NCBI RefSeq assembly: GCF_002999335.1
Contig: NW_020312081.1
Location: 124,001 to 188,000 of the forward strand
DNA: 64,000 bases
DNA from: Cyclospora cayetanensis
Lineage: Eukaryota > Apicomplexa > Conoidasida > Eucoccidiorida > Eimeriidae
Direction: 5' to 3'
Under the pieces are notes generated by a model that saw nothing but the letters and a program-made list of their open reading frames with translations, was not told the origin of the DNA and did not search any database. The translations under genes and the position numbers were made by a program. The stretch's first letter is position 1. Every line of letters starts with the position of its first letter. Shown here one piece after another: positions 7,682-59,532 of this stretch.

Positions 7682-10636
7682 ATGGAAGATGTTGCTGATG
7701 TGCCGTATGAGGGCGTTGTCGGCTGGCTCCTCTGCAGGCGGCTGCTGCCGGAGGATTACCATCAGAGATTGAAGGGTGCGTGCGTGAGGACGAACCAAGA
7801 ATGCTGCATAACAAAAGAAACCAAGGGTTAAGGCGACACGGGATGAAGCAGGGTGATGCGTTTAGCTAGTGCATCCATGAATGCCTGTCGCGTCCTGCGG
7901 CAAACGCGGCTCTGGAAGTCAACTGAGAGATTCAACTTGAGCTCAAAACATGCTTATTCGTGTGTATATGTAGGAGTCTGAATAAGGCCCTGTGCCCTTG
8001 TGCTTTCTTTCGAGTCAGGGATGACGGCCCACGTTAATGCTGCCTTAGAAACCCCTCCGGAGAGCCAAGAAGCCGCTAAGCTGATTGCAGAGAAGAAAGG
8101 CGGTCCCTTTGGGTATAGAGAAGTGGAAGAACTTGTGCAAATTCTAATGAAAGAAGGGGTGAGAGACCGGTGCATGCTTACCTCCAGATGTATTTTTCAG
8201 ACATTGAGCGTTCCCGTGGACGGTCTTTCGAGGCAGATTCTCTAAAGGAATTCGTGATAACGAGGACTCGGCAAGCAATATGCGTTTTTCTTGTGGCTGC
8301 TGTTATAATATGTTTAGGGCTCTGAGGGCCTCTTTTCGAAAGCGTTCGGATCTGCGATGTACAGGCAGTGGCGGCGTTTGCAGCGTACATTTCAACAACA
8401 GAACCTACACTTGGCAGATCTGTCTCGGTGAGCTTCAAATACGTAATCCTGTATAACTGGTGCATTAGAGCCATCTCCACCCAGGATTCTGTATTTCAAG
8501 TCCGTTGGCGCTTGCATGCTTCGCGTCCGCTGCCTTACGTGCTCCTACCAGGGCCCTTACAAAGACAGCCAACATGCTGGTGCCTACGCAACAGAAGATT
8601 CTACAGCAGAAACAACGATTGGTGGGCGTTTTCCTGACTTGAGTCCTTGTTATCCAGCGTCGTGAATGTATCCATGTGTCTGTATCAATGTCCATATTAT
8701 GCTGTACATGCATCTGTATCCGCACATGTCGGCAGGGATGCACGTATATACATATACATATATATATATGATCCCTAGAAGTGCGTGTATGCTGTTTACA
8801 TATTGCCTTGTCCCTTCGATGTGCGGCCACTGTAGATCTACGCAGAATACTGTGCATATTGACTCCCCCTGCTATGCTTTCTGCTGTGTAAAAAATGCTG
8901 CTGCGGCCGCACTAGCAGTGCAGAGTCTGACGTAACTGCCTGTACAGCATAGCATATCTTGAGATGCGTTTCGCTGCTGCAGCTCTCTGACTGTATCAAA
9001 AAGCAGCAACTGCTAAAGCAAAGTGCAGCCTCCTCCCAAGAGGCCTACGTTCAGCTGTGTCTGAAGTATGGCTTGGAGGAAGCAGCAGCAACAGATCCGC
9101 TGTTGCTGCAGCAGCAGCTCTTTGAGTATGTAAACCGCGAGCTGCCGCTGCGATTGCGCCGGGCTGAAGCACTGATTCGGCAGCAGGGGGCGGAGCTTCT
9201 CGCCTTTTACCGCTCGTTCGTGGCTTTCAGCACATCGGAAAACACTTCCAAAGAGGCACGAAACGATTCGCTGCCGCTGCTAGCCCTTCTTTCGGAGATG
9301 GGGAATGTGCTATTAGCAGAGGCCGCAGCAGCAGCACCCGAAATACCCGTCTTGCAGCAGCAGGTGCAAGACGATACGGCGGCAGCAGCAGTGCAAATAG
9401 AGATTCAGCAGCAGGGAGATGAGGGGGGCCTCTCGGATCTAGACGATCTCCCTGCAGACCATACCTGCTGGATTGTTGAAGAGGGCGAGGGGACGTGGAA
9501 TGGCTCGAGCGCCACTGACAGCAGCAGCAACATTACGGACAGCCTTCTCGGAAGTGCAGCCGTAAGAAGGCAACTGTTGCTCGAACTCACTGAGCTGCGA
9601 GGCTTCCTGTACGCGCGAATCGTGCAAAATCCAGCAGCAGCAGCAAGCAGCAGCAAGAAGCAGCAACTGCGGCAACAGTGGCAGCAACACAACGTCTTGC
9701 CAGAAGAGCTGCAGAAGTCGCACGACACAGTACGAACGTCTACCGTCTATGTCCTCAATCAAACCCCATAGCAAGCAAGCGAATAAGGAGTGCACTTTCT
9801 CTGGTGTTAGCTGTTGCTCCGGGTATTGTTGCCGCTGCTACACGTTTTTTCTGGGGGGGCCTACTCTTTCTCGTTTTGAGGTGTTGACAGCCTCCTCGTG
9901 AAGCCTGCTGCCGCTTCAGTTGCAGTATGCGTTCGCCGGTATACGCGTTTTCATTTGTTGGTATTGTCGTTGTTGCCGTTGTTATGCTTATTCTTATTGT
10001 TGTTGTTGGGTGGTGCTGCTGCTCCTGCCTGCTGCAGTTGTTGCGGTTGCGTGATTCGCTGGAGGAGCTGCATGAGCTGCTGGGAGGAGCCGAGACCGTC
10101 CAGCTGCTGCAGCTGCTGCAAAATGAAAGAGCGCGTAACAAGTAAAAATAAGGAACCTATTTCCCTCTACAGAGACGTATAGCCGTGGATTTTGTTTGGA
10201 GCAGGGCCTTTCTTTTCTTCGGCTATGCCGCAGGGGGTTGTTGCTTCTGGATCGAGAGGCCTTTGCTAAAATGGTGGTGCTGCAGGGTGTTGAATGAGCT
10301 CATGGCTGCGCGGGCACAGGCACAGAAGCCGCTAAGTGCAGCCAAGGAACAACAGAGGAGAGAGGCCTCCCTGAGCAGCGAGGTATGTTTTTTCTCCAGC
10401 TTTGCCGCTGTCATCCACACAGGTGCATGTGCTAGCGATTTATCAGGGGGCGTCGTGCTCTGTCTGGCGCTGCTGCCTCTACTTTTGTGCTGCCGCAGAT
10501 GGAAGCGGCAGCGGCTCTACTAGACAAACAGCGCGGGGAGCTGCAACAACTTGTGAAGCTCTTGCACGAGCGAATGGCAACGGCCGTCAACAGGAAGGTG
10601 CGCATAACTGGCATCCCCAGAGATCGGCTCCCATAA
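7682..10636 (+). CDS. CDK5RAP3: CDK5RAP3 / C53 homologue (UFMylation, ER-phagy adaptor)
   Basis: CDK5RAP3 (C53, LZAP) works with UFL1 and DDRGK1 in the UFM1 ligase complex at the ER and acts in ribosome-linked ER-phagy. Eight exons join in phase: 7682-7775, 8019-8158, 8318-8427, 8552-8621, 8983-9729, 10038-10141, 10286-10382, 10499-10636 (1500 bp, 499 residues; human 506). The start is set by MEDVADVP, matching human MEDHQHVP, with ACAATGG context. Landmarks follow the human protein in order: GWLLCRR (human DWLVDRR), HVNAALETPPESQEAA, the YVQLCLKYG helix (human FYHSCKQYG), LLELTELRGFLYAR and the end KVRITGIPRD. The family is largely helical with coiled coils and no membrane span. The central disordered linker is short, CAG-coded and lacks the IDWG shuffled AIM motifs. 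The AA|GTAAAA donor of exon 6 is the weakest junction. Confidence 0.9.
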
Positions 10637-12327
10637 ATCCCAAGCTTGAAGCCCCAACCAGATATCGCACAAGTCTCATGTACATGATTTAAGCCGAACA
10701 GCACACCTGAGAGGGGAGGGGTTTACGGCCTATCTGTGCTGGAGTACCTAGCTTCTAGTCAATAGAACACCCTTGTTCGGCTATTCCCCTACCCCAGAAA
10801 CCTTTTGCGACAAATCCTGCAGTATATGCATAAGCCGTAATTTGTCGTATCTACGAGGGCACCTGGTACGGGATACTGAATCTGCCGAAAGGCTGTTGTT
10901 TTTTGTTTTACGGCAAGCACCACTTGTAACGCTGTGTGCAAGAGTTCCACAGAAAGCAGACGTTTCATTCCAGACTAAATTCAAGCTTTATCCAAATTTA
11001 TTGTGTAATCAACAAAGGAGCTGCTGCCTCCTTCCCATACTAGCCTCCCTGAGAGTTTCCGACAAGAAGAAAGGGGAGGGGGGAGAGCTAAGCGGCGCAC
11101 AGTTCTTTGCATCCTGTAAGCATTACCCCGAGAATGCCGATCAACATAAATTGGCTCCACTTGCCATCTAGGGCACAAGCATGCAACATCGCGGCTTCTT
11201 ACGGGGCGGAGTTGTAACGCTGCTTCCTTTAAGGTCGCCGTAGGGAGACAGTTACCTCCCAAGCAGCAAGACAATTTTGTTAAAAATTTATTGTGTTCCT
11301 CGAGAAGCTCCGGCTTTCCTTTGTCATCAGCCCTCAAAGTTTGGCGATGAAGGGAGAAGGTCAGCCGCGCTGCGCAGAGCTGCACTCTCTAAGCAGTGCT
11401 AGCGTTCATAGCTAGATGCACATAGCGTGTAGTGCACACACACATACACGCACACAATTGCGTCTTCTTATAGTAGATTGCAAATCAAGAAGACGTGGAT
11501 ACAGACAAATCAAGGAGCCAATCCTTCACGAATGCTTGGTTAAACATAGCTATTGCAGCAGGAAGCATTGAAGTGTAGCTTAGCTCGGCACACCTCGACT
11601 TGGGGTGCCCGCGTGATGTGTGCACCTATCTAATAGCGACAAACGCGTTGTCATAGGCAGTCCCATGCGTTTGAAAATAGGTTTTAAGGTTAAATTATAT
11701 TGAGGGCCTTGTTTTCTCTACGCTGCACGGGAAGATAAGAGCACCTTTGAGTGCTCAGCAGGCGGGAGGTAAGGGTGGTAACACTCATGGTAACTTTTAG
11801 GTGTTGGAATGTGGCTTTGCTTCGTGCTGTGTCTGCACAAAGTGCTGCAGCAGTCCTTTTGTTGAAGTCCACTTATGCGTAGGTGCCAGTCCACAGGCCC
11901 CTACCCAGCAAGTGCACTTAAGCCGAAGATATTAGATTCAGCGCAATGGTCCTTGTAACATTGAATTTTCTAAGCGCTCCATAAGGGAAATCTAGATCAA
12001 CGAACGAACTGAGCAAAAGATAATGCGCACGCTCCAGGGGGGGTGGGCAGCGTTAGCGCGTGCTCGATCGACAGGGGCCCCTCAGGTGAGGGAGAGCAGC
12101 GCGGGAAGGGGGGAACGGGTTTCCTGGTGGGCCCCCCTCTCCCGTCTTTTACTAAGTAACCAAGCCGCGATAGACTCTGCCGAGCAGTATTTTGATTCTA
12201 TTTCTTCTCGAATCACGATTTCTGTAAGGCCTGTGAGGCGTTGCCTCCTCCGATTCGCTCTCGAAGAGAGCAATGCGTCCAGAAGGTCCTTCACAGCGAG
12301 AGACTGAACCTGTAGCTTCGAAGCCTT
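10637..12327. other. Intergenic, no gene supported
   Basis: This separates CDK5RAP3 and COX15. A minus frame at 10981-11385 (134 codons) has no recognisable motif and its translation does not look constrained. Nothing else is seen. Confidence 0.45.
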
Positions 12328-15300
12328 ATGGCGGCATTGGCCGCTTCGCGCATGCGTCCGCTGCTGCTCGTTGCAGCGCGAGGGCCCTTTTGTGCCCCTC
12401 AAGGCGGCGCCTCGAGCTTCCGGGGATTTGTGGGGTGCTCCCAAGGCCTTCCTTGCCTCCAGCGATGTATTTTTAGCCGAAGTCTCGGAGCATGCCTCCT
12501 TGAGGGAGGGCGAGGGGGGGATCCTTGGAAACAGCAGCGGGCTAGCGGCACGCGTGCGTGTGCATTGAGCCCAGCGCGCTATGGTGGCTCCTCCGACAGT
12601 GGAGTGTCTGCGCGTTCCAGCCTAGCCCAGGAGGCAGCAGCGCAGCGAAATCCATCTCCATCGAAAGCACCGACTCAACCCCGCGAAGACCCTTACCATC
12701 ACGCGAGCAGGCAAGAGCAGCACCCGTAGGGGCGATTCCACGGCTCCCCCCCGTCACGTCTCGGCGTCAGCGCTGTTTTTGCGGGCTCCTAAAGCTGCCG
12801 TCCTGTGTGCTGGCTGTCTTCCACAGGTTCGTGAAAGACGACTACAGAATTCCGGTAGGACTGTGGCTACTTGGTGAGCGTAGGGGCAAGGTTTCTTCAG
12901 TGGCGTCCTCCGCCCAGGCTTCTCTTAACGGACGCGTGCCACGGGAGGGTCTTCCTGCCATGGATGCAGACACAGCCGCTTGTTTGTGTGTGTTTGTATA
13001 TATGTGTATGTATGTGCGGATCTTCACAGGCTGCACGGGATGGGTGTTTGCTATGGTGGTTTGGGGGGGCCTGACGCGTCTCACAGAGAGCGGCCTCTCC
13101 ATGACGAATTGGCGTTTTGCTGGTACTGCATGGCCTGCCTCTGAAGAGGCTTGGACTGAGGAGTTTGAGGCCTACAAGGTGCTTCTTGAGACGCACAACA
13201 CTTGCTAGAGCGAACCGTGGAATCTTCGGGGGAAGCATTGGGGTGGGGAGAGGAGGAATTGGAAGGCGGGAGGGAGGGGAGAACGCTTCCTCGTCTGAAG
13301 TGTTCCTTGCACTGAATAGAACGGTTTTTTGCGGTTTCCTTACACTGTACAAAGCGTTTCTATGCGGTCTACGTGCAATACGCGCTTCGGCGTCGATATG
13401 GCGCTCACCTGTAGTCGAGGCAAGTGTCTCTATTTATACCCACGGGATGGCCATGTGTGCTGGTGTGGTCGTAGGAAACCCCAGAGTATTTGCAGTTGAA
13501 CTACGGAATGACGCTGTCGGATTACAAGAGGATATACTTCTATGAATGGGCTCATCGGTGGCTTGGCAGGGGCCTTGGCCTCGTATTTGTTGCAGGATCT
13601 GCTGCATGCCTTGCTGCCAAGGCAATTCACAAACCCCTTGGCTTGAGACTCGCAGGTTCGACCACCCCCCCCAATTAAAGCCTCTTGTGGCTTCCCTACG
13701 CCCCCCGTAGCGTCTCTGGGAGGAATAATTGGGGTTTCTTCTAGTACGGCCACCTCATGCAATCTCACAATACCCCATTTGACGTCTTTTGCTTCGAGCT
13801 TCTCCTGGCCTTAGAGTGTTCCTCTCCTCCTTCTCACTCGGTCATTGAGTTTCGCCTTCCCAAAAGATCTTTGCTGCATTTTTGCAGCGTTTCAGATTTT
13901 GATATATATATATATATATGTATATATGAGTGTGAGTATATGTGTATTGTGTGTACATGTGTTCATATGTATATGTATATGTATGTGAGTATATGTTTTT
14001 GTATGTGTGTGTATATATGTGTTTATATGTATATATATATATATATATACTTTTGTACCTTTGGAATATGGAACTGTTTTCAGTGTACGGCCTGCTGGGG
14101 GGTATCCAGGGTCTTGTGGGCTGGTGGATGGTTCGCTCGGGCTTTGAAGAACCGAAAACGGAAGTCAAAACTCCTCGGTGAGCTGTTATTTGTGAGTTTG
14201 TGTAAGAATCCGGCTTTGGAGAGCCTATTGCGTGGCGCCATGAGGCCTCGCAGTAGCCAAACCTTTCCCTCTCCCTCTCTGTCTGTCTCTCCCCCACTCT
14301 GTCTCTGTCTCTCTCTCTCTGTGTATGTGTCAGTCCTCCAATCTGCATGAGGCGTCGCGCGCATCTGGTTGTGTGGGATGCTTTCTGTGCGTTTGCACAT
14401 TACGGGCAGCGTGTCACCCTACCGATTGGCCTTCCACTTGATGATGGCCGCTACGCTGTACACCTTGCTGCTGTGGCAGTCCTTGGCTGTGCTGCTGCCT
14501 TCTCCCCCCAAGGCAGCCATCACAGCAGCGGCAGCGGCGGCAGCGAAGGTGGCGGGAAGAGAGGCGCATGCATTCGCTGCCCTCGCGGGGACTACCTTCT
14601 TCTCCGGAGCTCTTGTTGCTGGGAATGATGCTGGCCGATGCTGCAACACCTGGCCAACTATGAATGACAAGTGCGGCAAACTGCGATTCGAATCCTTCTC
14701 TCGAGGTTTCTTTTGTCGAGGCTAGCGAAATGGCTCCGGCGGTGGTACCCTCAACAGGGCTTGTAAACGTTGCACATGGAAGTGCTTCAAACTCGGATGT
14801 GGTAGGCCGCTGCCGTAGCTCAGGAGGCTACTGCGATCCACCGGGTTTAAGGTATTTGTGGCCTTTCTCGCGATTTTCGGTGCAGATGGGTGCCTACCGA
14901 GGTGTACGCTAAGCCCTTCAATTGGAGGCGCTTCTTTGAAAACCCCGAAACCGTGCAGTTCGATCACAGGTTGCTCGCGTACTTGACGTTTTTGTCCTCC
15001 TTCGCCCTCTTCTTCAGGCATAAGGACAAACCTTTCCCCGCCCCCATCAAAGTCCGCCGCTAGTGACATCGATTTTCGCATGTAGACTTTTGGAGAAAAA
15101 GGGGTCGAAGGAGGGAATGGGGGGAAGTGATAATGAGTCCGAAAAGCCGAAGATTGAGCTGCACAGCCTAAGAAGGGGGGGGTGGTTCCCAATAGCACTG
15201 CCTCTCGTCCGACTAAGTGCGCATGTCACGTGTGGGTGCGAGTTTACTGCCCTGAATAACGTTAGGGATAGGGAAGCGTTTCGAGTTTTTGTTTACTCAG

Positions 15301-15652
15301 ACGGCACTGCGGTTTCTGCCGATGATGACCTCCTTACAATTGCTCTTGGGAATACTTACAGTGCTGTACTACGTCCCCACAGAACTGGGAGTTCTGCACC
15401 AAGTGCGTTGGTTGGTTTTTGCTTTTGCTGCTGCGACTGCTGCTTCTAAATGCTGCTAGACATGCTCTATGGGGCTGCTGTACACTGTTGTGCTCCAGCA
15501 GGGCCCGCATATTCCATTCACACACCGGCCGCCAAGTGCTACATGCCCAGTTCCTTTTGAGCATCTGTGTGTTTCAGGCTCAGGGGTTGCTGACGCTGAG
15601 CAGCGCAATTTACCTAATGCACCTTCTCTCTCGTTTGAAGCTCAAAGTCTGA
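12328..15652 (+). CDS. COX15: Heme A synthase COX15, mitochondrial
   Basis: COX15 oxidises heme O to heme A in the inner mitochondrial membrane for cytochrome c oxidase. Nine exons join in phase: 12328-12725, 12827-12873, 13030-13178, 13475-13655, 14084-14177, 14410-14670, 14886-15051, 15301-15402, 15578-15652 (1473 bp, 490 residues). The first 60 residues are Arg-rich with few acids, fitting a mitochondrial presequence. The core begins at about residue 134. The four family heme-ligand histidines are present: His225 (EWAHRW), His299 (YRLAFHL), His404 (VQFDHRLL) and His465 (LGVLHQ). [14 protein letters not shown] and GWWMVRSGF also match. An Ala tract in exon 6 comes from GCA/GCG repeats. Introns 2-4 are TG/TA-rich. 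Exon 8 reads on to a stop at 15459, but splicing at CAA|GTGCGT restores the conserved last helix, so 15652 is the preferred end. Confidence 0.93.
13902..14052. repeat. TA/TG microsatellite in COX15 intron 4
   Basis: An imperfect run of TA, TG and TGTATA units directly precedes the pyrimidine tract and acceptor of COX15 exon 5. Confidence 0.85.
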
Positions 15653-18600: not shown

Positions 18601-18673
18601 GAGATTGGATAACATGTTGCGCAAATGACGGCCAGATGGCGTACCTCCTGAACTGTAATTCCTTAATACTGAA
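15653..18673. other. Three-kilobase gene-free stretch
   Basis: I find no exon with family motifs or coherent splice phases. Frames at 15469-16234 are short, overlap on both strands and look random. AT content is somewhat higher around 17300-17900. No repeat or RNA gene is recognised. Confidence 0.45.
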
Positions 18674-30317: not shown

Positions 30318-30368
30318 CTTGACCGCTGAGGCTGTACGTATGCAGCTGCCGCTTTCGCGTGGTGGGGG

Positions 30369-30370
<2 letters not shown>

Positions 30371-30409: not shown

Positions 30410-30410
<1 letters not shown>

Positions 30411-37196: not shown

Positions 37197-37248
<52 letters not shown>

Positions 37249-41841: not shown

Positions 41842-41884
<43 letters not shown>

Positions 41885-44800
41885 CGGCAAGGGAGCCTAA
41901 GGCGTCCAGTGTTGAGGGCGCTTCCCCTCAAGATCCTCAAGAGGCCCTCTATAGGTTTGGTTTGAATCGTTTGCTGGGTAAGTCCGTTCTCTCAGCCTGC
42001 AGCTTGCTGCTCGGGAACACCCTATTTCAAGCTTTGAATTGGGGGGTGTCGCTGATATATATATATGTATGCGAAGAGGGCGCTAGAAGGGGGCTGCGCT
42101 GCTCGGTTCGCGTGTGCGCATGCGCACAGACTTCGTCCTGCAGTGCGGCGTTGACGAAGCCACCCCTTCCCCGCAAGGAGCAGCGGCAGGGAAGGAAGGG
42201 GGATCCTTGGGAGCAACAGGAGCAACAGCAGCAACAGGAGCAACAACAGCAACAGCAGCTCCTACAAGGTGCAGCTGCGGCTGCGAGTTTGCCAGTCCTG
42301 AGTACTCACCTGCCTCCCCGTCCTCCGCATGCCCACCTCCCTCGGAGAGCAGAACGTCAGTCTCCTTAGACACCAGCCCCCCAGCGACTACCCCCTGCTG
42401 CACTGCAGCATGCGGAGAACCACCCCCCACCGTTAGACTTCCAGAAGGAATAGCTGAATTCCTGGATCTCTTGCGAGAGACTGCCGCTAGGGGGGCCCCC
42501 CTCTATCCATGGTCTTTATTTAAGCTCATCCTCGGAGGACGGCTGTACGAGGTACGCGGCAAAGTGGACGGACGTGGAAGCGTACCCCTTTTCTCCTCTT
42601 TCTGCCCCCTTTCGAACTGAGCCTGTACCCCGTAATTCTCATCACGGCGGCACTGCCGCCACTTGCGCACGCTCCTTCGCTGCAGCTATTTACTGCACTT
42701 GGAAAAAAACAACAGCGACACCTGCGCTCCTTCGACTGGGAACGAGCTCGCGACACCCTCTTCGCGCAAGTTCTCGCATTTGAAGCGTACGCCGCTCCTC
42801 CCCCCGAATAGGCAGATGATCTGAAGAACTGCGTATCCTCCACTGTAACATTCCGAGAAAACGTCTACATGTGGCGAAGGGGGGATATTTACGATGAAAG
42901 ACAGGGCAATGCCAGGGTCGTAAGGGTTAAAACTGTGGTTTTTGTGTTTACAGTGTGTACTTGTGTATCTATGTATGAGTGTGTGTGTGTGTGTGTATCT
43001 GTATACATATATATATGTGTATGTATGTGTGTGTGTATCTGTATGTATATATCTCGATCTGTGTATCTGTGTGTGTATCTGTGTGCATATACCTCTATCT
43101 GTGTATCTGTGTGTGTATCTCGATCTGTTTATCTGTGTGTGCATATCTCGATCTGTTTATCTCTGTGTGCACACCTCGATCTGTGTATCTGTGTGTACAT
43201 ATCTCTATCTGTGTATTTGTGTGTGTAGCTATATATATATATGTGTATGTGTGTGTATCTTGATCTGTTTATCTGTGTGTGTATCTCGATCTGTTTATCT
43301 CTGTGTGCATACCTCGATCTGTGTATTTGTGTGTGCATATATCTCTATCTGTGTATCTGTGTGTGTATCTCGATCTGTTTATCTCTGTGTGCACACCTCG
43401 ATCTGTGTATCTGTGTGTACATATCTCTATCTGTGTATTTGTGTGTGTAGCTATATATATATGTGTGTGTATGTGTGCATATCTCGATCTGTTTATCTGT
43501 GTGTGTATCTCGATCTGTTTATCTCTGTGTGCATACCTCGATCTGTGTATTTGTGTGTGCATATATCTCTATCTGTGTATCTGTGTGTGTATCTCGATCT
43601 GTTTATCTGTGTGTGCATATCTCGATCTGTGTATTTGTGTGTGCATATATCTCTATCTGTGTATCTGTGTGTGTATCTCGATCTGTGTATCTGTGTGTAC
43701 ATATCTCTATCTGTGTATTTGTGTGTGTAGCTATATGTATATGTGTGTATATGTGTGTATCTCGATCTGTGTTTCTGTGTGTGCATACCTCGATCTGTGT
43801 ATCTGTGTGCATAGCTATATATATATACATATATATATACATATCTGTGTGTATCTCGATCTGTGTATCTGTGTGTTTATCTGTGTATCTGCCAATCTCT
43901 CTGTCCGTCTGCCAATCCCTCTGTCTGTCTATCTGTGTATCTCTCTGTCTGACTCTCTGGTCTTAGGCCTCCGTTGACGCTTCAGCGGTTGTGTGAAATC
44001 GCGTGGAAGCCTCCGCACCAGCAGCTGGAGAAGCTTTTTTTTGCTCTTAAGAAGGTAAGTGGATTGATTTGCTTGGCGTTGGTTTCTTGCCCAGCCACCC
44101 TCAACCTGCGCACCCTTCCCCACGACCACAGTCTGCACCGGTTTAGTGCTTATGACGTTGAGTTTTTCTGTATGTGTGTGTATGTATGTGTGTGTATGTG
44201 TGTGTGTGTGTATGTGTATGTATATGTGTGTGTATGTATATGTATATGTGTGTGTATGTATATGTGTGTGTATATGTGTATGTGTATGCATGTATGTGCA
44301 TGTATGCACATATGTATGTGTGTGTATGTGTATGTATGCATATATGTATGTGTGCACGTATGTGTATGTATATGCAAGCATGTGTATGTGTGTATGTATG
44401 TGCAAGTATGTGTATGTATGTGTGTATGTGTATGTGTGTGTATGTGTACGTATATGTGTGTGTATGTATATGTGTGTGTATATGTGTATGTGTATGCATG
44501 TATGTGCATGTATGCATATATGTATGTGTGTGTATGTGTATGTATGTATGCATATATGTATGTGTGCAAGTATGTGTATGTATATGCAAGCATGTGTATG
44601 TGTGTATGTATGTGTGTCTGTCTATGTATGTGTGTCAGTCTATGTGTGTGTATGTGGATGTGTGTGCAGCTGGTGCGAGTGCGGGATGGGTGCACTGAGT
44701 GGCCATCCCTTCCAGCCATCCCTACCGACGAAGCATTTAAGCGGCGTCTTGCAGCAGCCAACGCCGTAAGTCAGCCTCTCAGCTCGGTGCTGCGTGTTGC

Positions 44801-45185
44801 GAGTAAACAAGGCCAACTGTGGGGCGTGTAGCGCAGCCGCCTCTATCCTGAGCAGCATTGCAGCGCTTGCTTTGTTTCTCTTCCAAGGGGGGAAGGGGAG
44901 GAAGGCGCAGCAGGATTTCTCCCCCCCCTTCCTCCCCGCAGGCCTCTTTTTCGCTGTGGAAATCACTGTGCGCTCCTCGCGAGTTTTCTGGTTTGGGGGC
45001 TTTGCCGCTGCAGGTGTCAGATACGCTAACGGCAGCGTCTAGGCGGCTGCTAGGTGCTCGCACAGGCTTTTTCCTGCTTTCCAGGGGGCCCCCCCAAGGC
45101 AGGGGGGGGGCCTCCTCTTCGGCGGGCTGCGGCGAGGCAGCGCGCTGCGGCTGCCCGTGCTGCGTCGATTGGCTGAGCGAGCTGC

Positions 45186-45216
<31 letters not shown>

Positions 45217-48500: not shown

Positions 48501-49153
48501 TATTATAGAGTCGACACAAGAAGGGGGGCAGAGAAGACTTGCGTTTAAGCGGGAAAACATATCTGTAACTGGGCAAACAGGGAGCGATTGGAGGACAGGT
48601 GGTACCGGTATGTAGGGCTGCATGCACGCCGACTGCTGCCCGTCAACTGGGACGGTGGTTAGGCAGTAGCCGCTTTGCGGTATTTCTCTCGTCAAATACG
48701 AGGATATTGTGCATGCAACCTACGCTTCCTCTGGAATTTTGAGTACAGGCCACAAGGGGCCTGGCGGTGGGGGTACACCGCTTGCTGCTTGCAGCAACGC
48801 AGTGGGTTATGGATTTGGGTTTTTACGGACAGCGTAGGGTTGCTGCTGTTTGATTACTGCATGATCTTTGAAGTTTAATGTTTACCTGTCGAGTAGCGGC
48901 CTACCAACGATTTATGGCGCAGAGACTGCATGAAACAAAGCATTCGAGTGACTCGTCTGGCCCCCTCTCTCCAGCGGACGCCAGAGTAGGATCAGGAGCC
49001 TTTCTTCATGTGCGCCGCATGCGTCCCCCAAAACATTCCTGATGCAACAGCGACAGCCAGAGAAGCAGCGCAACGCAAGCAGTAGCAGCGGCAGGAGTGG
49101 AGCAGCAAAGGGCCTCGCTCCTGCCATTCGGCGAAGGGGGCCCTGAACCCCCA
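45554..49153. other. Gene-free stretch of 3.6 kb
   Basis: I find no exon with family motifs. A CATATACACATA repeat lies at about 45586-45665 and a TA run at 47258-47286. A perfect 11-bp inverted repeat lies at 46957-46967 and 46987-46997. Frames at 45808-46540, 46699-46953 and 47987-48695 are short and look random. Part of the right end is the CCR4 gene promoter and leader. Confidence 0.45.
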
Positions 49154-49184
49154 ATGAACCGCCACGAACGCAAGAAGGATGCTG

Positions 49185-49221
<37 letters not shown>

Positions 49222-52200
49222 CGCAGCAACAGCAGCAGCCGCAGCAGCAGGAGCCGGAGCACCCGCTGAAGCGTCCACCTCCCACGGGCCTGGCAGCAAC
49301 CCCAAGAAAATCCACCGAAGCGCCGTGCATAGCAGCAACAGCGGCAGCAGACGTAGCAGCAACTGTAGCAACAGCACTGCCAGTGGCAGTAGTACGGGTA
49401 TACTGAGCACCTTCAGCAGCCCTCCAGGGGCCCCCCAGCCGTCCTACTCACAGGCAGCCGCAGAAACTGCCGTGCATTTGCCTCCTCACGTGCATGCAGG
49501 CATGGGTGCAGAAGGCGGTGGGGTCCTTGGGGGCCCCCTAGGCGGATCCTTTTCTGTCGAGAATGCGTCTGCGCGCCTTCCGGAGCGTCACCTGAATAGC
49601 AACCCGAAGAAGCTGGCAGCAGCCTCTGTTGACGCCACTACTGTTGGCGCGAACGGAGCTATTGGCAGCGAGGCGTCTAAAGGGGGAAAGCTATCTGCTA
49701 CGGCAACTGCAGAAGCGGGCTGTGCAGTTCACGGGGGAGAGGAGGAAGAGGAGGAAGAGGAGCGCCTGCACCAACGCCAGCGCTTGGCGAAAGCAGCAGC
49801 AGCTACACAGGCAGCAGCTACACAGGCAGCAGCTACACAGGCAGCAGCTTCTCAAGCAGCAGCTTCCCAAGAGGCTACGCAAGCGGCAGGGGAGGCGCAT
49901 GCGCATCTCGCGGAAACACTTGCGCTAGCAGATTCTATGTGGGCATCCTCTACGCCGCCCCTTCGAGCCATGAGCGCGTCTGCATCTCGAAGCATTTCCC
50001 ACGGCTCTTTGGAAGTTTCTGGCAGTTTCGCAGATCTTCCGGGAAGCCCCCGACGCTGCCTCCGATTTTCTTCCGGCTCCAAGGCTCCGGTGTCTTTTCT
50101 TCGATGCTGCCTCTCCTGGGGAGGCGGCCTGCAGGAGGAAATGGTGCCTGTTGAGGGGTGCGAGCTGCGTCCAGTTCTGCTCATCAAGGATACACGAGGG
50201 GCCCTTGTCAACGACGAAGCCTTGCAGCTCGGAGGGGGCTCTCCCTGTGTCTCGGAGTGGGTTCATCTGGCGGAAGCAGAGCGGCGCTCGTCTTCTGCGG
50301 ATGTCGAAGGGGCAGCAGGAAGCGCACTCCTCGCCTCTGGTGACGCTCCAGGGGGGCCCCCCCCGTACCCTTGCCGTGTTTTGTACAGGTGGCAACGGGG
50401 GCCCCCCCGCGCGGTCTGTGCGCTGCACCCCCACCGCGAGGCGAAGCTCCAGTGCGTGGCTTCTTTGCGCTGCTTTTGCGGCTATCGATGCTTCTCTGCT
50501 GGCATGCAGCAGCTGCGGCGATTCTTCCTCTCGGGGGGCCTCTCCCCCCTTCCCTCGCATCCGAACCCCTGCACGTATGGGGCCCCCTGTCGCCCCTTCA
50601 GCTGGCACGACATCGACGAGGAGCGCGAGACTGACGTGCAGCATTTAGCTCTCTTGACGCAGGCCGGCCTTGTGGATGTTGTGGATCCGCGCGGGCTCGC
50701 CGGGGGGGGGGCCCCTCGGGGGGCCCCCAAGGGAGCGCCCTCGAAGGGGATCGCGGGTTCGGAGCAGCCTTGGCACGAGTTCTCGACGGGCAAAGTCATT
50801 CCCGTCTCGGCGCCTCCTTCGGCGGTACACGAGGAGGACGAGGAGGGGGAGGTGGAGGAAGAATGGGGGGCCCCCCGGGGGCCCCCCCCCCGGCAGTCGC
50901 ATGCGAAGGGCTGGTCTGTAGTGAGCTACGAGAAGAATTATGCCCCCGAACCGGGAGACGCCGGGCACCAGCTTCAGTTTGAGGCCCTTATTGTCACCGA
51001 TGAGGTGCTGCTTGAGTTTGAGCTGGCGCAGCGGCAGCAGCGGCTACGAGCGAAGGGGAGAGCGCCAAGGCATCACTCGCAGCCAGGGGAGGGGGCTCCA
51101 GACGAGCAGACAGACGACGGGGAGGCTGATTTTGGGAGACTCAGTATTTTCGACTGGGCTCCACGAGACAGCAGCTTCTACCGATGCATTCGGACGGCTT
51201 TCTGCCTCCCCAAGGTAGGGGCCCCCAAGCCTAGAAGACGGTGGCTTATGCCGCCTTCTTCTAGGCATCATCCACGACCCATCGGAGAGGGGCCTCTCGA
51301 GAGGATGCGCTCCAGGCAGTTTCTGAGTAAGGGGCCCCTTCCCAGGAGTCTTCTTCCCAAGCTGGACGATATCGTGCAGGGCATGCTGTGCGAGGGCATG
51401 AATCCTGCAGCCTTTCCTTGGCTGCGCTCCAGCAGGGGGCCCCCTCAAGGCTGCCTGCCAGGCGAAGAATTGGGGGGCACTTGTCAGGGGCCCCTTGCCG
51501 CCACTCTGTCGGGGGGGAGACGACAACAACCTTTCGGATGGAGCACAAGAGGGGGGGGGGAGAGCAACTCCTCAGGCCTCTCCGCTCCCTCGGCTGCTGC
51601 CAGCTCAAGCCTGCGAAGGGGCCTTTTTTCGCCGCATCTGATGCCTCCCTTCGACGTTGGAGATTCCCCCTTCCCGGCTGCAGACTTCGGGGAGGGGCTC
51701 TTGGGGGCCCCCCAAGGGGGGGGGGCCCCTGAGGCTCCCGGGGGGTGCCCAGCAGCTGCGGCAGACTACGGAGACTTTCTGCCGCCCCTCGGCAGCAGCG
51801 GCAGCAGCAGTCTAAGGGTGAGCATTATGAGCTGGAACGTCTTAGCCGAGCTGTACAGCACAGTGGCTGCCTTTCCGCATTGTGAAGCCTACGCCCTCAG
51901 TTGGCCGTACAGAAAACAGAGGATCATTCAAGAGATTCTGACACACAAGCCGGATATTGTGTGTCTTCAGGTAAGAGCAGATCGGGAGTATGAGGGGCAT
52001 GTATGAGTCCACCAAGCGGTGGTTTTTGTTGGAAGGAGGGAGGGAAGGAAGGGAGAGAGAGAGGGAAGGAAGGAAGAGAGAGAGAGAGAGAGAGGGGGAA
52101 GGAAGGGAGAGAGAGAGAGAGAGGGGGAAGGGAGGGAGAGAGAGAGAGAGGGAAGGAAGGGAGAGAGAGAGAGAGGGAAGGAAGGAAGAGAGAGAGAGGG

Positions 52201-54160
52201 ATCGAAGAGGGGGATGGCAGGAGAGGTTTTTTTTTTTTTCTCCTTTTCCTCTTCCCAGCACGGCGTTTTTTCTACGGCTGACGATCGGTTTTGGAGGGGT
52301 TGTGTTTGATGTGCGTAGGAGGTGGAGCGGGAGCATTACGAGGACTTCTTTCTGCCACAACTGGCTGCGGAAGGGTATGCTGGGGTCTATAAGCAGAAGA
52401 CTGCCGAGATTTTTGCTGCCAGCAGCAGCAGCCAGAGAGGGGGAGGGCGGTTCACGATGGATGGATGCGCCTCATTCTATTTGATGCACAAGTACAGACT
52501 GATTGACTCTGCGGCTCTGGAATTCTCTGCTCTGGCGAAAGCTGCCTATACACCCCAGCAGCAGCAGCAACAGCGACAGCAACAGCAGCAGCGGCAGCAG
52601 ATGCTGCTGCCCAACCAGCAGCAGCTCAGCACTCCAGCCCGCGGCAAAGATGGACCTCCTAAACGGCTGCTGAAAGACAACATCGCCCTCTTGCTGCTTT
52701 TCGAGCTGAAGACGGATGCCACTGCGCACTCCCAAGAATCGCAGGAGCAGCGACCAGAGCAGTCGCATGGCGGATCAGAACTGCAACGAGAGCCAAAACT
52801 TTTGCTTTTGGCCAACACTCACGTTGCTGCGAATCCGGATTCGAATGACGTGAAGATCTGGCAAACCCAGACGCTTCTCGGGTAGGGGGGAGGAGGGGGA
52901 TGTGGTGCTGTCTTTGCCACACAGTGTATTACTGCGCACTCCTTTCAAGCAGAAAAGGCCTTTGCTTTTTGGGTTTTCTCAAGAGCGACTTGGCTGTGTG
53001 TAATGTTGCTCCTTCGGTCTGCTGCGGTTGGCCTCCTTAGCCTTCAACCCCCCGCCGTTGCCTGCTGTTTTCTTGCTGTTTTCTTCGGCACTGCTCTCTG
53101 CACGCCTCCGCCGTGCATGCGTGATTCTAATGAGCGCCCTCTTTCTGTTTGTCTTTTTGTAGAGCGCTCGACAGCTACTTAAGCTGCTTTCCTTCACGGC
53201 CGCCTGCCCTCCTCCTGTGTGGAGATTTCAACAGCTCTCCAGACTCCGCGGTGTACAGACTCCTACTCACGGGTGCATGCGATGAGCAGCATCAGGATTT
53301 CGCCGCGGACGCCAATGGAATCCTCCGGGATTGCCACATTGGGCATTCGCTAATGCTCTCATCGGCGTATGCGCTGGTAGGCGCGTTGCGAACGGCGTTG
53401 CGGGCAAACGAAAGATGGGGGTCTGTGTTGGAGAGGGGGTTCTGTTTCGGAGGCTGCCGGTTTGTTGCGAAGGGCCTCCCTCTCTGCAGTTTTCCGGCTC
53501 ACAACGTTCGCATGGGGTAGATGAGGATGTGCTGGGGGTTTGCCGTGTTCGCTTGTAGGGGAAGGCTCTGCGGGAAAATCTGGATCCGTACGACTTTGAA
53601 GTGTCGCAACAGTGTGAACCGCCCTTCACGAATTATACTGGCAACTTTACGGGCTGCTTGGACTACATATTCTTTTCCGCGTCCGAGCTTCGACTTGCTG
53701 CTCTCATGGAGCCAGTCTCGGAAACTCAGCTCTTCATGGTACGTACGTTAGGGGCAGAAGCTTGGGCTACGGATAAGTCTGAAGAGAGTCGTGAATACTG
53801 AAGGTTCGGAGTGGTGGAGAGCTGGCTCGGTGGCTACTTTGGGGAATGCACAGGCCTTAGTTGTCTGCACCGACTGCTGCAGTTCCGCGTCGCCCTTACG
53901 TTCCCCTTGAATTGTTCTCTGTCGGCTTCTTTCGTTGACGCTTCCTAGCTGCTGGGCTGCACAGACAGGAGACGCGATGCCGCGCGGTGCTTGCGGTGTT
54001 GCTGCAGGAGGCAGAAACGCTGCATCTACGAAGTGCTGCACTGCCATCACCCTTACGGCCCTCTGACCACGTCCCATTGATTGCGGAATTCGACTGGATC
54101 GAGGATCCTCTAACTGCGAATCCTCTTCAATCATCAACCCCTCTAGACGTGATTCACTAG
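49154..54160 (+). CDS. CCR4: CCR4-type poly(A) deadenylase (EEP nuclease)
   Basis: CCR4 enzymes shorten mRNA poly(A) tails as part of CCR4-NOT. Five exons join in phase from the chosen ATG: 49154-51970, 52319-52881, 53163-53376, 53559-53738, 54008-54160 (3927 bp, 1308 residues). The C-terminal 415 residues form the endonuclease/exonuclease/phosphatase fold with all signature motifs: MSWNVLAELY (Asn895), VCLQEVE (Glu940), MDGCASFY, LLLANTHVAANPD, LLCGDFNSSPDS (Asp1148, Asn1150), NYTGNFTGCLDYIFFS and RPSDHVPL (Asp1278, His1279). The first 890 residues are Ala/Gln/Gly/Pro-rich low complexity, with Gln10 near the start and no leucine-rich repeats. They contain a less repetitive island (about residues 360-480) with several Cys. 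The open frame extends to 49097 without an ATG. The true start could be in an upstream exon. CCR4 rather than nocturnin or angel is inferred from the motif set. Confidence 0.88.
49190..49219. repeat. (CAG)10 coding for Gln10 in CCR4 exon 1
   Basis: Ten CAG units near the N-terminus of the CCR4 protein are followed by GCA-coded Ala runs. A second Gln cluster lies at about 52556-52626. Confidence 0.9.
52036..52218. repeat. Polypurine GA/GGAA tract in CCR4 intron 1
   Basis: About 180 bp are almost purely purine on the plus strand, built from GAGAGA and GGAAGGAA units, followed by a T-run and pyrimidine tract before the exon 2 acceptor. Confidence 0.9.
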
Positions 54161-54502
54161 AGCCCTAATGTAGTAAGTAGCGAACCCGAACCCCTGCAGC
54201 ACACAGACGCCGCTGCCCGCCCATCTGCCGCGTAAAGTGGCAGCATGTGACTGAAATGATTTTTTTCCTGTTTTTCTCGCAAATTTAACTGTCGGATGTG
54301 TGGATCCTTTGAACTTGTGCACTGGCACCGTCTCTGGGCTGCTCAAACACGCGGCTTGCCGCTCGTGGGCGGTGGACCGACTCCCCCTATCGATCCGAAT
54401 AAAAACTAGAGCCAGATCCCGCAAAAAGCGCTTAGGAAACGTGCGTCGGATCATGGCAAACGAAACCGCGCTAGCACAGAGTCTGACTTCTAGTCTCCCT
54501 TC
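54161..54502. other. Convergent intergenic spacer
   Basis: This 342 bp spacer separates the CCR4 and ADAT2 stop codons and must hold both 3' ends. I see no defined element. Confidence 0.55.
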
Positions 54503-55552
54503 TTACAGCCAGTCATGACGAGGAAGAGCAGCTCCCTCCTCCCCCCCGCAACCGGCTGCACCTTCTGCAGCGGATTCAATCGGCCGCTTCCTTTTGCATT
54601 CCGGGGCATTGGGATTTCCCCTGGCGTAAAATCTTCTGAGGAGCTCAATTGCCTCGCTTTTTAAGATCCCTCCCTTGCACAGGAGGGGCGGGACGGCCTC
54701 CCTGCCCGCATCGCCGTGCTGGCCGCTCGTTAGGGAGCAGCTCGCGGGGAAGTTATGGATATTGAGGACTGTGCCACACCCCCCAAACCTGCTGTTCATA
54801 CACCCAAAGTAGACGCGCGAGATACCGCACAGGCGAATCGCCCAGGCACACATGACGCACGGCTCACACGTTACGTACAGATGGAGGGAAGACAGCTCCG
54901 GGCTTTGTGCAAGACTACGCTTGCTGCTGCTCGCCTCCTCGCTACAGCAGCTACTGCTGCCGCCGTTTCCTGCCACATTTGGGCTCGACAGCGTCGCAGA
55001 CACAGAAAGGGGGCCGTCACCTGGGAGGTTTCTCTCTGCCGCGCTCCTTAAAAAGTCATCTATTGCCTCGAATTCGCAGTGCCGCGTCGCATTCCTCTTT
55101 TCATTTGTTTTGTTTCGGCCCCTCCCAACAACTCGAAGCGTCAATGGGCAGACCAGCACACAGCCTACTGGTACCTCGCCCTCGGCAGCCGCCGCAGCGG
55201 CCTCTTTTAGTGCTTCCCGCATAAACGCGACTTCGTCGTAGGCCTAGAAACGCAAAGCCAATACACGAGAACCACACGCAAATATTGGCAGCAACAGCTA
55301 GTATGGCAGAGGAAGGGAAAAACCGCAATATGAGGAATCTCGCGAGGGAGTGGATGCCTCGAAGACCAGCAGGCCCTTAAATTAGCAGCAGACTATGTGT
55401 AATGCAGAAAAAGCCGGAATTCCCCGGTTCGATGCCATCACCTCCAGGTGGTTCCTAGCGAAGAAGCTGACCTGTTGCTCCCGCCTTTCTGTCATCTGGT
55501 CTTCCTTCAATGTGTGAACTGCACTCCCGAACGCTTCCGGCTTGGCTGACAT
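54503..55552 (-). CDS. ADAT2: tRNA-specific adenosine deaminase subunit ADAT2/Tad2
   Basis: ADAT2 is the catalytic subunit that, with ADAT3, converts A34 to inosine in tRNA anticodons. Two exons join in phase: 55552-55472 and 55243-54503 (822 bp, 273 residues; human 191). The ATG at 55552 is the first in the frame. The deaminase fold shows GEVPVGCVLV, GRGRNKTNEKRNATRH with zinc ligand His82 and catalytic Glu84 (HCE, where HAE is usual), then PCVMC with zinc ligands Cys156 and Cys159. RFGGCGTVLNI and FYARGNPNAP are ADAT2-specific. A Ser/Ala-rich insertion of about 45 residues (95-142) separates the two zinc motifs, and the tail is basic, then Gly/Glu-rich. The partner ADAT3 is not in the window. 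Confidence 0.93.
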
Positions 55553-55884
55553 GAGCGCCCCTGTCCGTTCCAAGACGCCCTCCCAGTGCGTGTTTCGGCA
55601 CGACGCTTTGCTTATCTGGCTACTGCTGAAGGTTCGCCTTTATGTGTGCTCGTATCTCTGCCCGGCATATGCTCCCTAAGAGTCCGCCGAGTCGCGTCTT
55701 TTCTTGCTGCCTCGCTTGCAGCCCCCACCAACCACCGCCCCCACTCTTGATCCAGGAAGATACCACGAAGATACTGCGTTTCAGGGTCGACTTCCTTCTC
55801 CTCCTGTATATTCTCGGCTCAACAGGAGCATGCAGCACCGGCTATGCAACACGTGCGCGTTCTTGAGTGTGACTGCGTCAATGT

Positions 55885-58272
55885 TCAGAGCTCTTTTAAT
55901 TCAGCGTCGAGACGGCTGAAAGCGAATTCCTGTCCGCCGACCTGCGGGCAGTCGAAGCAGCAAGACACCCCAAACCCCTTTACACGTAGCCCTGTATGCA
56001 CCCATGGAGGGCGGCAACATTGAGTGACATACGAAGACTCCCACACATTCCAGAGAGAAAAACGCCATGAGAAAAGACGCGAGTGACTCTGCCCCGTTGC
56101 AGGGGTGGTGGTTGTGTGGAGCATCCGCTTAAAATGCATGCGGACATGCGTCTGCTCCAAAGTTGCATGAAGACAGCGCATGCATAGCTCATGACTAGGA
56201 TACGAAATCAAAGAACACATGTAGCAGCCATCCACAGCGCCGGAAAAACTAGGTTGCCCGGAGCATGCAGATTTCGCCGCCCCCTAACTTGCATGAAGAC
56301 AGCAGTATGTTTCTTCATGCATTTTAAAAGAGCTCCAAAAAAGGCTAGAGCAGGACATAAACAAACGGCTATACCTTAATGATGCCGTCCCTAATAATGA
56401 TGCCCCATGTGGCGCTGCGCTCCATGGAAAGCGGGCGAGAGGAGTCGGCTGGTCGCGAAACCTGAAGCGCTCATCATGAAGCACCCGAGAGCAGCTAAGC
56501 TTCCAGAGCGTTGGCCTCAAGCGCAGTGTGCGCAGGCACGTTTCTAAGTAAAAAGATGGAATTCTCGGTGCACTAGAGTGTAGTTGCCTCATGGCATTTA
56601 GCGTTTCGGGGCTTTGTGGCGTGCAGGGCGTAGAGTCTGCAGCACATGGAGCCTATAGCTCGTTCTTCTTCAACGACTCTCGCCTCATTAGGAAGCCTGT
56701 GGCGTGTAAGATGGGCACCTTATCAAAATGGCCAATAATTTTGTCTGGTGCGTCTGCTTCTGGGATAAGTTCAGTAAGATCTGAGAGCGGAGGTGGCGCC
56801 AGCCGGTTCTCTGAGAGGAAGGCGACTTCTTCCGCAGAAAGACCAACTCTTCCCGCTAAACAATCTCCTTCTGGTCCTAGCTTGTCCACATTCGCGCCCT
56901 CAAACTCGTCTACACATACAAAAATGCAGATTCGCTTCCGTAGCCGGCTGTGTCACTCATGCTCACCCCAGAAGGGAGAAGAGGGGGGCGATGATCTGTG
57001 GACAGCGCCTCCCGGAAACAGCCAACCGGGTAAGCTAGCCAGGTTCAAACCCTTAAAAACTCCTAAGCCAGTACAAACAGCGAACTGCTAAAATAGCAGA
57101 GAAAATGGAAGAAAAGAAGCAAAACCGCTTACCGTCTGATCCTCCGGTACTTGAGCGCCTTCTCTTTCTGCTTGGACTGCAAGAGACACCTCCAGCCCAC
57201 ACAGTTCACGAGCAACTAGACTCCCTAAAGACACCAAGCCTACTGTACCTACCCGTGCTACGGCTCCCATGCGGCTACAACCATGCATTTTTACGAACCT
57301 CTCTTCGTCAAAAGCGTGATCAGAGAGGAGCGCCAGAGGCCTTCCATCCGCCTGAAGGATTTCAACAAAAACACCGGCGCAAACGGAAACAAGTGCGCCT
57401 CGATAGCATGCAAGCATAACGCTCTGTACAGTTGATTACTCAGCGCTCTTATGGCAAAAAGCCCTCTTCGTTTTCCCTGCTTATGAGCTGACTGCATGTG
57501 CCCCTTTGCAAGTCCGAGCATTCAGAATGGACGGGTGCATGCCAAAGGGAGGGGCTGCATCATGAAACATACTTCTGGAAACGCAAGCGTCTGGTTCCGA
57601 AGACGCTCAACAGTACCCTCCCTCCACACCTGAAGTGACACCAGAGCCGTGAACCTGATTAAATGAATATTCCGCTTCCGCAATGCTGCAAGGCTGGCTA
57701 ATCCGCAGTCCAAACGCCTGTACCCACCCGCTTCCTTGTGCGCTTTTGGGGTTGCCTCACTCTTATAAATTTTTCCTTGATCTCCTTTGGCAGCGAAATG
57801 GACGGCTCTACCTCAATACGGGAGGCAAAGTCTGCGCGTTTAGAGCAAGGCATGTACACCCCAGTGGGTGGGTGTCGTGGAAGGCACAAAAATACACCGC
57901 CATGAAGTTTATCCACAAAGAATTCACAAAATCGGCGACGCGATTAATAGAAGGCCTCTTATGCTGCAAGGCTGTCTGCTCCCCACCCCTTTCAATCTGC
58001 ATCCATGCAAGCTCTTTTTAATTATGGTACTCTTCGCCTTTGATGCACACGAAGCACGGCTGCCCGATGCAGCACCGCGTGGTGTATACACGGCTCTGCC
58101 CTTGTTGTTCGGCTGCTTAGGATGAAGCAAGAAGACGCGCATCCAGGAGATAGAGCATTGAAGTAGCTAAAAGGGCTTTTATGGCGTAGGGTGTGGGAGT
58201 TGGCATACGCTCGATGAGTCGCTCGCAAATCAGTTGAACTTCAGGCTTCGGATCGGTGGGCTGAGGCATCAT
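55885..58272 (-). CDS. Unidentified 212-residue protein, eight small exons
   Basis: I do not recognise the family. Eight exons chain in phase: 58272-58137, 57831-57761, 57629-57573, 57351-57295, 57176-57133, 56848-56719, 56461-56375, 55941-55885 (639 bp). The opening is MMPQPTDPKPEVQLICERL with a mildly hydrophobic helix (AIKALLATSMLYLLDA). Next come RIEVEPSISLPKEIKEKFIR, a basic stretch (SKQKEKALKYRRIRR), SAEEVAFLSENRLAPPPL and the C-terminus GIIIRDGIIK plus VGGQEFAFSRLDAELKEL. Composition is non-repetitive and lacks the CAG tracts of its neighbours, which suggests a conserved small protein, possibly organellar. The start of exon 6 (AAG acceptor) is the weakest border and could lie further upstream. 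The gene is divergent from UFM1, with 449 bp between. Confidence 0.6.
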
Positions 58273-58721
58273 CTGCCTCCTTCGCCGGTGATGGATTGCA
58301 CCGAGGTCAAGAGAGAGCAAGAGGAAGCGCGTACGAAGCAATTGAGAGAGGAACGGAAGAAGAGGATCAGGTCGCTTCCTAGAGCACAGCGGGAGGCTTA
58401 GCCCGACAATGCCGCATCTACAGATCAGAAAGCGGCATCCGACGAACGAAAAGACACAAGCATTTTAAAGAAGGAATGAACACACACAGAGCCGAATGAA
58501 CACTATGCATGCAGTGGAAGCCCAACTGTCACAAGCCCTGTAGCCACAGGGGCTTCAGTACCTTGAGAGGGCCCCCGTAGCAGCCGAATTCAAGCGTCTT
58601 CTTCCTCCGTTTCCTTTACTAGATCTCTGCGCATTCCAGGAATAAAGCATAGAGAAACACCGTTTCCGCCTTCTGCTATTGCATACAAACCTGCGACTCC
58701 CTGTCGCCTGGGGTACCGACA
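58273..58721. promoter_or_regulatory. Divergent promoter region of UFM1 and the 55885-58272 gene
   Basis: This 449 bp lies between two start codons pointing away from each other and probably carries both promoters. This is inferred from position only, as no element is recognised. Confidence 0.4.
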
Positions 58722-59532
58722 ATGTCTGAGAAAGGGTATTGCTACTTGCGCTATTCAGCCTTCCCCCCTTTTAACCCTCCGCTTCCCCCCTAAAAGCAGT
58801 AGTAAGATATCATTCTCTCTTTGGGGTCATGCGATTTGCTGAGGTTATTGCGTTCTACAGTCCTTTCAGGCGTGCTCCCTTCTCTTGATCGCTTGTCTTG
58901 TGGTCTGTCTGCGTGAAGGGGTAAAGTCACCTTCAAGATCACCCTAGCCTCAGATAGCAGGCAGCCGTTTAAAGTCCTCTGCGTGCCCGACGCTACGCCC
59001 TTCTCTGCTGTCATCAAATTCGCAGCAGAAGAGGTGAGGAAGCACCTTCTCGACACCTTGCCCAACGGACGGGTGGTCTCCCCCACAATTATTCGCACCT
59101 ATTCGTGACAACCTTCCCTTACTTGATATCGCATGCACGGACATGTGCCTCGTGCTCACGCGCGTAGAAGCGAAGACACGGGAATGCCCCTAACGAGACA
59201 TACACATGACCCATTCTGATGGCAGAATCGTATACGACGTAAAATTAGGAATTCAGATAGATGACATTTTCTGTATCAGCGAATACAGCTAAGACCGTCC
59301 ATAGAGGACGCTGATCTGGTGTCTCTGCTTTCGCCTCTATCCCCGCCTGCACTTCCTGTGCTGTGCCCCACTATCTTGTCTCTCCCAGTTCAAGGTCAGC
59401 GCCGCCACTTGTGCGTGCATAACGAACGACGGGGTCGGCATCAACCCCCAACAAACTGCAGGCATCATCTTCTTGAAGCACGGAGGAGAGTTGCGGCTCA
59501 TTCCCAGAGACCGCGTGGGAGCCACGCTCTAA
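58722..59532 (+). CDS. UFM1: Ubiquitin-fold modifier 1 (UFM1)
   Basis: UFM1 is a ubiquitin-like modifier conjugated to ER-bound ribosomes and other targets through UBA5, UFC1 and the UFL1 complex. Three exons join in phase: 58722-58735, 58919-59033, 59389-59532 (273 bp, 90 residues; human 85). Residues 8-90 match the human protein almost throughout: [36 protein letters not shown], then [32 protein letters not shown]. The conjugating Gly is followed by ATL, where human has SC, so processing by a UFSP protease would still be required. Exon 1 is a 14-bp micro-exon coding for MSEK and part of the next codon. It was chosen because its GG|GTATTG donor gives the needed phase. The frame just before exon 2 has a stop, so an upstream exon must exist. 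Confidence 0.93.

Follow-up and report, generated by a model that had tools for sequence, protein, structure and literature searches.

The window analysed here, a stretch of 64,000 nucleotides from the apicomplexan gut parasite Cyclospora cayetanensis (family Eimeriidae; contig NW_020312081.1, positions 124,001 to 188,000), hosts the genes for the modifier UFM1 and for CDK5RAP3, also called C53. In all likelihood both belong to a UFM1 conjugation system that is complete and probably functional. As judged from sequence, the modifier, the activating (E1) and conjugating (E2) enzymes, the UFL1, DDRGK1 and C53 parts of the ligase (E3), the protease and the acceptor lysines of the ribosomal protein RPL26 are all encoded with the expected motifs. 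Ligation of UFM1 to ribosomes is likely to take place in Cyclospora, since such motifs are carried by five partners, and neither acceptor lysine of RPL26 is missing. A coccidian with UFM1 was already on record, Toxoplasma being listed with it (PMC7600729, Table 1), and the pathway in Cyclospora extends current knowledge in an ordinary way. More tentatively, C53 may have retained in these parasites a motif for the recognition of UFM1, and have lost those directed to ATG8.

The UFM1 cascade in the Cyclospora genome

C53 is encoded by eight exons across 7682-10636, which yield an intact frame of 499 amino acids (aa). The NCBI protein "CDK5 regulatory subunit-associated protein 3 [Cyclospora cayetanensis]" agrees with this product in every residue of the full chain. 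The whole protein falls in the Pfam family CDK5RAP3 (PF05600; 148.1 bits, residues 6-492), and its sequence matches the solved CDK5RAP3 chain 8ohd_B at E 6.9e-12. The AlphaFold2 model, built from 12 sequences, has a mean predicted local distance difference test score (pLDDT) of only 69.5. Searched with Foldseek, it matched two chains only at E <= 0.001, 8ohd_B (E 2.0e-9, template modelling (TM) scores 0.50/0.60) and 8qfc_C, both of which are C53. UFM1 is split into three exons separated by GT-AG introns. The joined frame is intact, and codes for 90 aa ending in RDRVG, ATL and the stop codon. It covers the Pfam family Ufm1 (PF03671) from end to end (model 1-75 of 75, 129.4 bits, E 4.8e-38), and the best solved chain of the family aligns at E 6e-39. 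The alignment to solved UFM1 stops at the glycine, and the ATL propeptide and the stop remain. A chance match or a pseudogene is ruled out for either gene, because the frames are full-length, the introns are of the GT-AG type and, for C53, the product is identical to the NCBI model. The preliminary description of the window had set UFM1 at 58722-59532 and C53 at 7682-10636, and these coordinates are exact to the base, from ATG to stop. The two genes lie 48 kb apart, and its view of co-occurrence rather than an operon is maintained. The partners that it had named, UBA5, UFC1, UFL1, DDRGK1 and a UFSP2-type protease, all reside in the same assembly with their key motifs, as do both C-terminal acceptor lysines of RPL26.

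The partners were first seen exon by exon in a profile search of the 43.2-Mb assembly at curated cut-offs, and the exons were then joined. Counts from this search are lower bounds; the Ufm1 and CDK5RAP3 families were found in the present window only. Pieces above the cut-off were four of four for UFC1 (contig C359), two of two each for UFL1 (C387), DDRGK1 (C358) and RPL26 (C344), and two of three for the C78 protease (C327). Control scans covered 14 genomes, the named ones being prokaryotes: CDK5RAP3, UFC1, UFL1 and C78 matched in none, Ufm1 in one (below the cut-off), DDRGK in one (above it), Ribosomal_L26 in four (all above) and ThiF in 12 (11 above). The ThiF family has 12 matches over seven contigs of the Cyclospora assembly. 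The match on C223 is UBA5, since UBA5 chains are the best PDB matches of this protein (E 6.4e-98), and the next family, MoeB, follows at 2.5e-20.

Joined UFC1 scores 260.4 bits over model positions 2-153 of 155, and GGRICLDAHF is present. The query and the solved UBA5 chain have REGVCAASLPTTMG in common. Both the position of the active cysteine in UFC1 and the choice of the active one in UBA5 are assumptions of ours. In the tail of UBA5 LHEENPFGISLV is aligned to IHEDNEWGIELV of the solved chain, and the C-terminus reads VDDLAARLKSLQS. Since LHEENPFGISLV stands for IHEDNEWGIELV, the histidine is kept, and Trp is changed into Phe; this histidine belongs to the UFM1-interacting sequence of UBA5, as reported in PMC5428781. 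UFL1 aligns with the solved chain 8ohd_A from residue 8 to 384 of 794 (E 2.6e-26). According to PMC10937380, a GGN loop of human UFL1 enters the catalytic (peptidyl-transferase) centre of the ribosome; the tripeptide GGN is absent from all three frames of the forward strand over the 10 kb of the UFL1 locus, but the UFL1 alignment ends before that part, and the absence may thus be of no significance.

DDRGK exons, once joined, score 144 bits. LDDRGRF is kept, and the favoured splice model gives KKAFKIEAEG, to be compared with KEAFVVEEEG of the solved DDRGK1 chain. This model relies on a GC-AG intron read by eye, which yields WKKAFKIEAEG and was favoured because it best fits KEAFVVEEEG, so that the choice was guided by that likeness. 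Two of three GT-AG joins also keep FKIEAEG, either as WKATFKIEAEG or in a longer form ending in LQKAFKIEAEG. The joined Peptidase_C78 exons score 143 bits. The protease has GWGC and DPHY, thus the catalytic cysteine and the Asp-Pro-His of a UFM1 protease (the solved UFSP chain used for comparison carries Ser at the Cys position), and is nearer to UFSP2 (7.8e-36) than to UFSP1 (8.6e-16). As a separate observation, a SAYSvFN match above the cut-off (model 26-70 of 70) is found at contig C360:15922-16047; the family is that of SAYSD1, which is said to be linked to UFMylated ribosomes.

Core members and key motifs, the C-terminal glycine of UFM1, the UBA5 histidine, the acceptor lysines of RPL26 and, in the favoured splice model, the DDRGK1 strand of the UFM1-interacting motif (UFIM) are the same as in the systems of man and other eukaryotes. 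Cyclospora differs from man in the three-residue propeptide ATL, in the UBA5 Phe found in place of Trp341, and in a C53 loop devoid of the three IDWG motifs present in its human counterpart.

RPL26 and the proposed route

After joining, the exons of RPL26 (C344:146557-147423) score 117 bits against Ribosomal_L26. The model starts after the first exon, and a candidate start, MKFNK (locus position 947), was left unjoined. The tail, NKGKYTEKDVAQVD, includes NKGKYTEKD and both acceptor lysines, residues 115 and 117 of the query, which align with human Lys132 and Lys134. Lys134 is the main UFM1 site of human RPL26 in the account of PMC10937380.

The tail was compared by chain lengths and aligned ranges among 60 of 64 matches, which is no survey. 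The uL24 chain of 5xxb, which we take to be a T. gondii ribosome entry, is aligned through the tail, with TKGKY for NKGKY; that of 9ygm has NKSKY. The 126-aa uL24 of 3j79 and allied entries, presumably from P. falciparum, is aligned to query residue 112, has two residues left, and ends before the acceptors. The 126-aa uL24 of 4u3m, which we believe to be from yeast, is aligned to residue 110. The acceptor tail is thus kept in the coccidians examined, and gone in a single apicomplexan from which UFM1 is reported to be lost (PMC10183829). The link between UFM1 and the tail is not a clean one: the 136-aa uL24 of 7r81, in our assumption a fungus and hence probably lacking UFM1, is aligned to residue 117.

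According to the scheme that these genes suggest, the UFSP2-like protease would trim ATL from UFM1, and the modifier would be charged by UBA5, whose UFM1-binding tail is present, and passed to UFC1. The UFL1-DDRGK1-C53 ligase, of which C53 would be a subunit, could then attach UFM1 to RPL26 of 60S subunits bound to the endoplasmic reticulum (ER), and UFM1 on RPL26 may lead to the release of stalled or terminated ribosomes.

The disordered loop of C53

Plant and human C53 bind both UFM1 and ATG8 via shuffled ATG8-interacting motifs (sAIMs), IDWG or IDWD, hosted in a disordered loop, residues 263-316 of the human protein (PMC10183829). The same source describes T. gondii and other apicomplexans that keep UFM1 as devoid of sAIMs, and UFM1 as lost in Plasmodium and Gregarina. 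The corresponding loop of Cyclospora was compared in a set of 12 rows, including two C. cayetanensis models, eight named Eimeria species and two further records. Neither the sAIM pattern [IL]DW[GD] nor the canonical ATG8-interacting motif (AIM), [WFY]xx[LIV], was found in any of the 12 loops, in line with the published statement. ATG8 itself is encoded in the Cyclospora genome. A second tryptophan of the Cyclospora loop, within TWNG, was considered as a relic of sAIM2 and rejected, because it is confined to the two C. cayetanensis rows. Of the working pathway put forward in the preliminary description, the complete UFMylation cascade stands; a route to ER-phagy is unsupported, the loop having neither sAIM nor AIM.

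In the place of the sAIMs the loop carries WIVEEG, a putative UFIM. W301, E305 and G306 are invariant (12/12), and 11 of the 12 rows fit both the full pattern W-[IV]-V-E-E-G and [FWY]x[VI]EE, in a region predicted to be disordered, as would be expected of a UFIM-type reader. With the second of the two C. cayetanensis models set aside (11 rows), mean column identity is 0.50 (residues 286-300) and 0.53 (307-312) on the two sides of the motif. The Ser-rich residues 313-321 (0.79) and the Gln-rich residues 259-269 (0.85) may owe their conservation to low complexity. [FWY]x[VI]EE occurs once, in the C53 loop, in the 32,071 aa of the reading frames of the window (>= 100 aa between stops, on either strand, whether coding or not), and in 0.06-0.28% of shuffled C53 loops; these figures denote rarity, and are no blind or prior test, since the motif was known before the pattern was defined.

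The UFIM of UFBP1 (DDRGK1), FVVEE, binds UFM1; in the crystal, the residues in contact with the modifier are Phe196, Val198 and Glu199 (PMC9772183). The solved structure is probably PDB 7w3n. Both motifs have the form Aromatic-x-Val-Glu-Glu, lie in a flexible region and run on into an acidic/Gly stretch. The Cyclospora motif resides in C53 and has Trp for Phe, and whereas binding of UFBP1 has been crystallised, the likeness is here one of sequence form. In Arabidopsis C53, the hydrophobic Ile278 and Val280, located just after sAIM1, are reported to add to UFM1 binding (PMC10183829). Similarly, FGVE in the human loop sequence IDWGDFGVE has the aromatic-x-Val-Glu spacing of the eimeriid motif. 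No description of this motif was found in the passages, titles and abstract openings covered by the literature search, preprints and most subscription journals lying outside the search.

These observations would fit a loss of IDW in eimeriids, with retention of the strand that follows. The dual motif of C53 may have been split in Eimeriidae, though this is put forward with reserve: the ATG8-facing IDW would be gone, the UFM1-facing strand left as a one-tryptophan UFIM, and autophagy uncoupled. Our conjecture is that the partner of the Trp motif is UFM1, and not ATG8. C53 would perhaps serve as a subunit of the ligase and read UFM1, and not act as a receptor of ER-phagy that binds ATG8, given that the loop has no sAIM or AIM and carries one conserved, UFBP1-like W-[IV]-V-E-E-G. 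T. gondii is likewise a coccidian with UFM1 and a C53 reported to lack sAIMs (PMC10183829, PMC7600729). In Albugo candida and Piromyces finnis sAIMs are absent as well; these organisms are without UFM1, and ATG8, not UFM1, was the partner of their C53, whereas eimeriids keep UFM1 (PMC10183829).

UFMylation and ER-phagy are usually told as one route, joined by C53. If the proposed splitting took place, the history of apicomplexan C53 is more than the plain loss of a motif, and coccidians may keep the tagging of ribosomes and drop the autophagy half, which would show that both are separable. The published statement on sAIMs is sharpened, as these are indeed missing in the relatives compared, yet the loop keeps a conserved motif shaped like one that grips UFM1.

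Alternatively, the Trp motif may bind some other partner, such as UFL1, the ribosome or a coccidian-specific protein, and have no role in reading UFM1. This is rather unlikely, as Aromatic-x-Val-Glu-Glu fits the crystallised UFBP1 motif, and DDRGK1 of C. cayetanensis probably keeps the same strand, FKIEAEG. Still, the IEIQQQGDE island, located 15 residues upstream, is as conserved as the Trp motif, so that an unrelated function may have kept the loop conserved, and Eimeria flavescens departs from the UFM1-type pattern. It is less probable that C53 is still an ER-phagy receptor, and that W-[IV]-V-E-E-G is a degenerate sAIM binding both ATG8 and UFM1. The disordered loop that hosts the motif is the one that hosts the sAIMs in man (263-316 in man, 274-320 here), the tryptophan is kept in 12/12 rows, E. 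tenella has DW, the genome encodes ATG8, and motifs of the UFIM type, or LC3-interacting region (LIR) type, in UBA5 bind UFM1 and ATG8 (PMC10183829). Yet IDWG/D and W-x-x-[LIV] occur in 0/12 loops, and T. gondii and other apicomplexans are counted as lacking sAIMs (PMC10183829).

Several points weigh against a working cascade, and against C53 as a reader of UFM1. Complete gene models are those of UFM1 and C53 only, the other components being exon pieces. UBA5 has Phe in place of Trp341, the C-terminal half of UFL1 is unaligned, and one of the three GT-AG splice options drops FKI from the DDRGK1 motif. ODR4 and ATG11 had no match in the search of the assembly, and none in the control genomes either, so that their absence carries no weight. 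In UFM1 a Cys takes the place of a Ser of the aligned solved chain; by the numbering that we assume, this is probably Ser22, which bonds Glu199 of UFBP1. WVGDEG of E. flavescens breaks the UFIM-like pattern, and the pattern was matched to UFBP1 a posteriori. C53 of Toxoplasma was not returned by three protein searches, two of them limited to the 7,994 candidates with most words in common; these searches yielded only C. cayetanensis, the eight Eimeria species and the two further records.

That the genes are relics of a pathway being lost, their open frames functionless, as perhaps en route to the UFM1-less Plasmodium, is very improbable, since the core components are all present with their motifs, the exons read are open, C53 is 54-60% identical to the protein of eight Eimeria species, and RPL26 retains the acceptor tail before which the 126-aa uL24 of 3j79 (P. 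falciparum, as we assume) ends. Part loss of the system is reported for alveolate parasites (PMC10183829).

Coordinates and other features of the window

Positions of the C53 and UFM1 exons and of the segments of the C53 loop, counted from the first nucleotide of the window
Feature	Positions	Strand	Evidence
CDK5RAP3/C53 exon 1	7682..7775	+	ATG at 7682; protein identical to NCBI model
C53 exon 2	8019..8158	+	gene model, NCBI identity
C53 exon 3	8318..8427	+	gene model, NCBI identity
C53 exon 4	8552..8621	+	gene model, NCBI identity
C53 exon 5, carries disordered loop	8983..9729	+	gene model, NCBI identity; loop pLDDT < 50
C53 disordered loop, residues 274-320	9388..9528	+	AlphaFold2 pLDDT < 50
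First conserved island IEIQQQGDE, residues 277-285	9397..9423	+	mean column identity 0.94, 11 rows
WIVEEG, residues 301-306, proposed UFIM in the place of the sAIMs	9469..9486	+	mean column identity 0.91
C53 exon 6	10038..10141	+	gene model, NCBI identity
C53 exon 7	10286..10382	+	gene model, NCBI identity
C53 exon 8	10499..10636	+	stop at 10634-10636; gene model, NCBI identity
UFM1 exon 1	58722..58735	+	ATG at 58722; exon-joined gene model
UFM1 exon 2	58919..59033	+	family match and exon-joined gene model
UFM1 exon 3	59389..59532	+	encodes mature C-terminal Gly, then ATL and stop

Many open frames are found on both strands at 42900-44750. Their repetitive translations point to simple repeats of the CA/TG type, and these frames are not likely to be genes. 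A weak match to the start of the endonuclease/exonuclease/phosphatase family (22.8 bits, below the cut-off of 24.5) lies at 51827-51970, near the end of a frame of 987 aa, which has a long low-complexity N-terminus and, to our eye, presumably the look of a CCR4-type nuclease. The start of a haem A synthase of the COX15/CtaA type is located at 13020-13190 (Pfam 1.1e-14, residues 159-215 of the frame 12546-13208), and a protein of the cytidine/tRNA-adenosine-deaminase type (PF00383, 8.5e-18) is encoded on the minus strand at 54503-55243.

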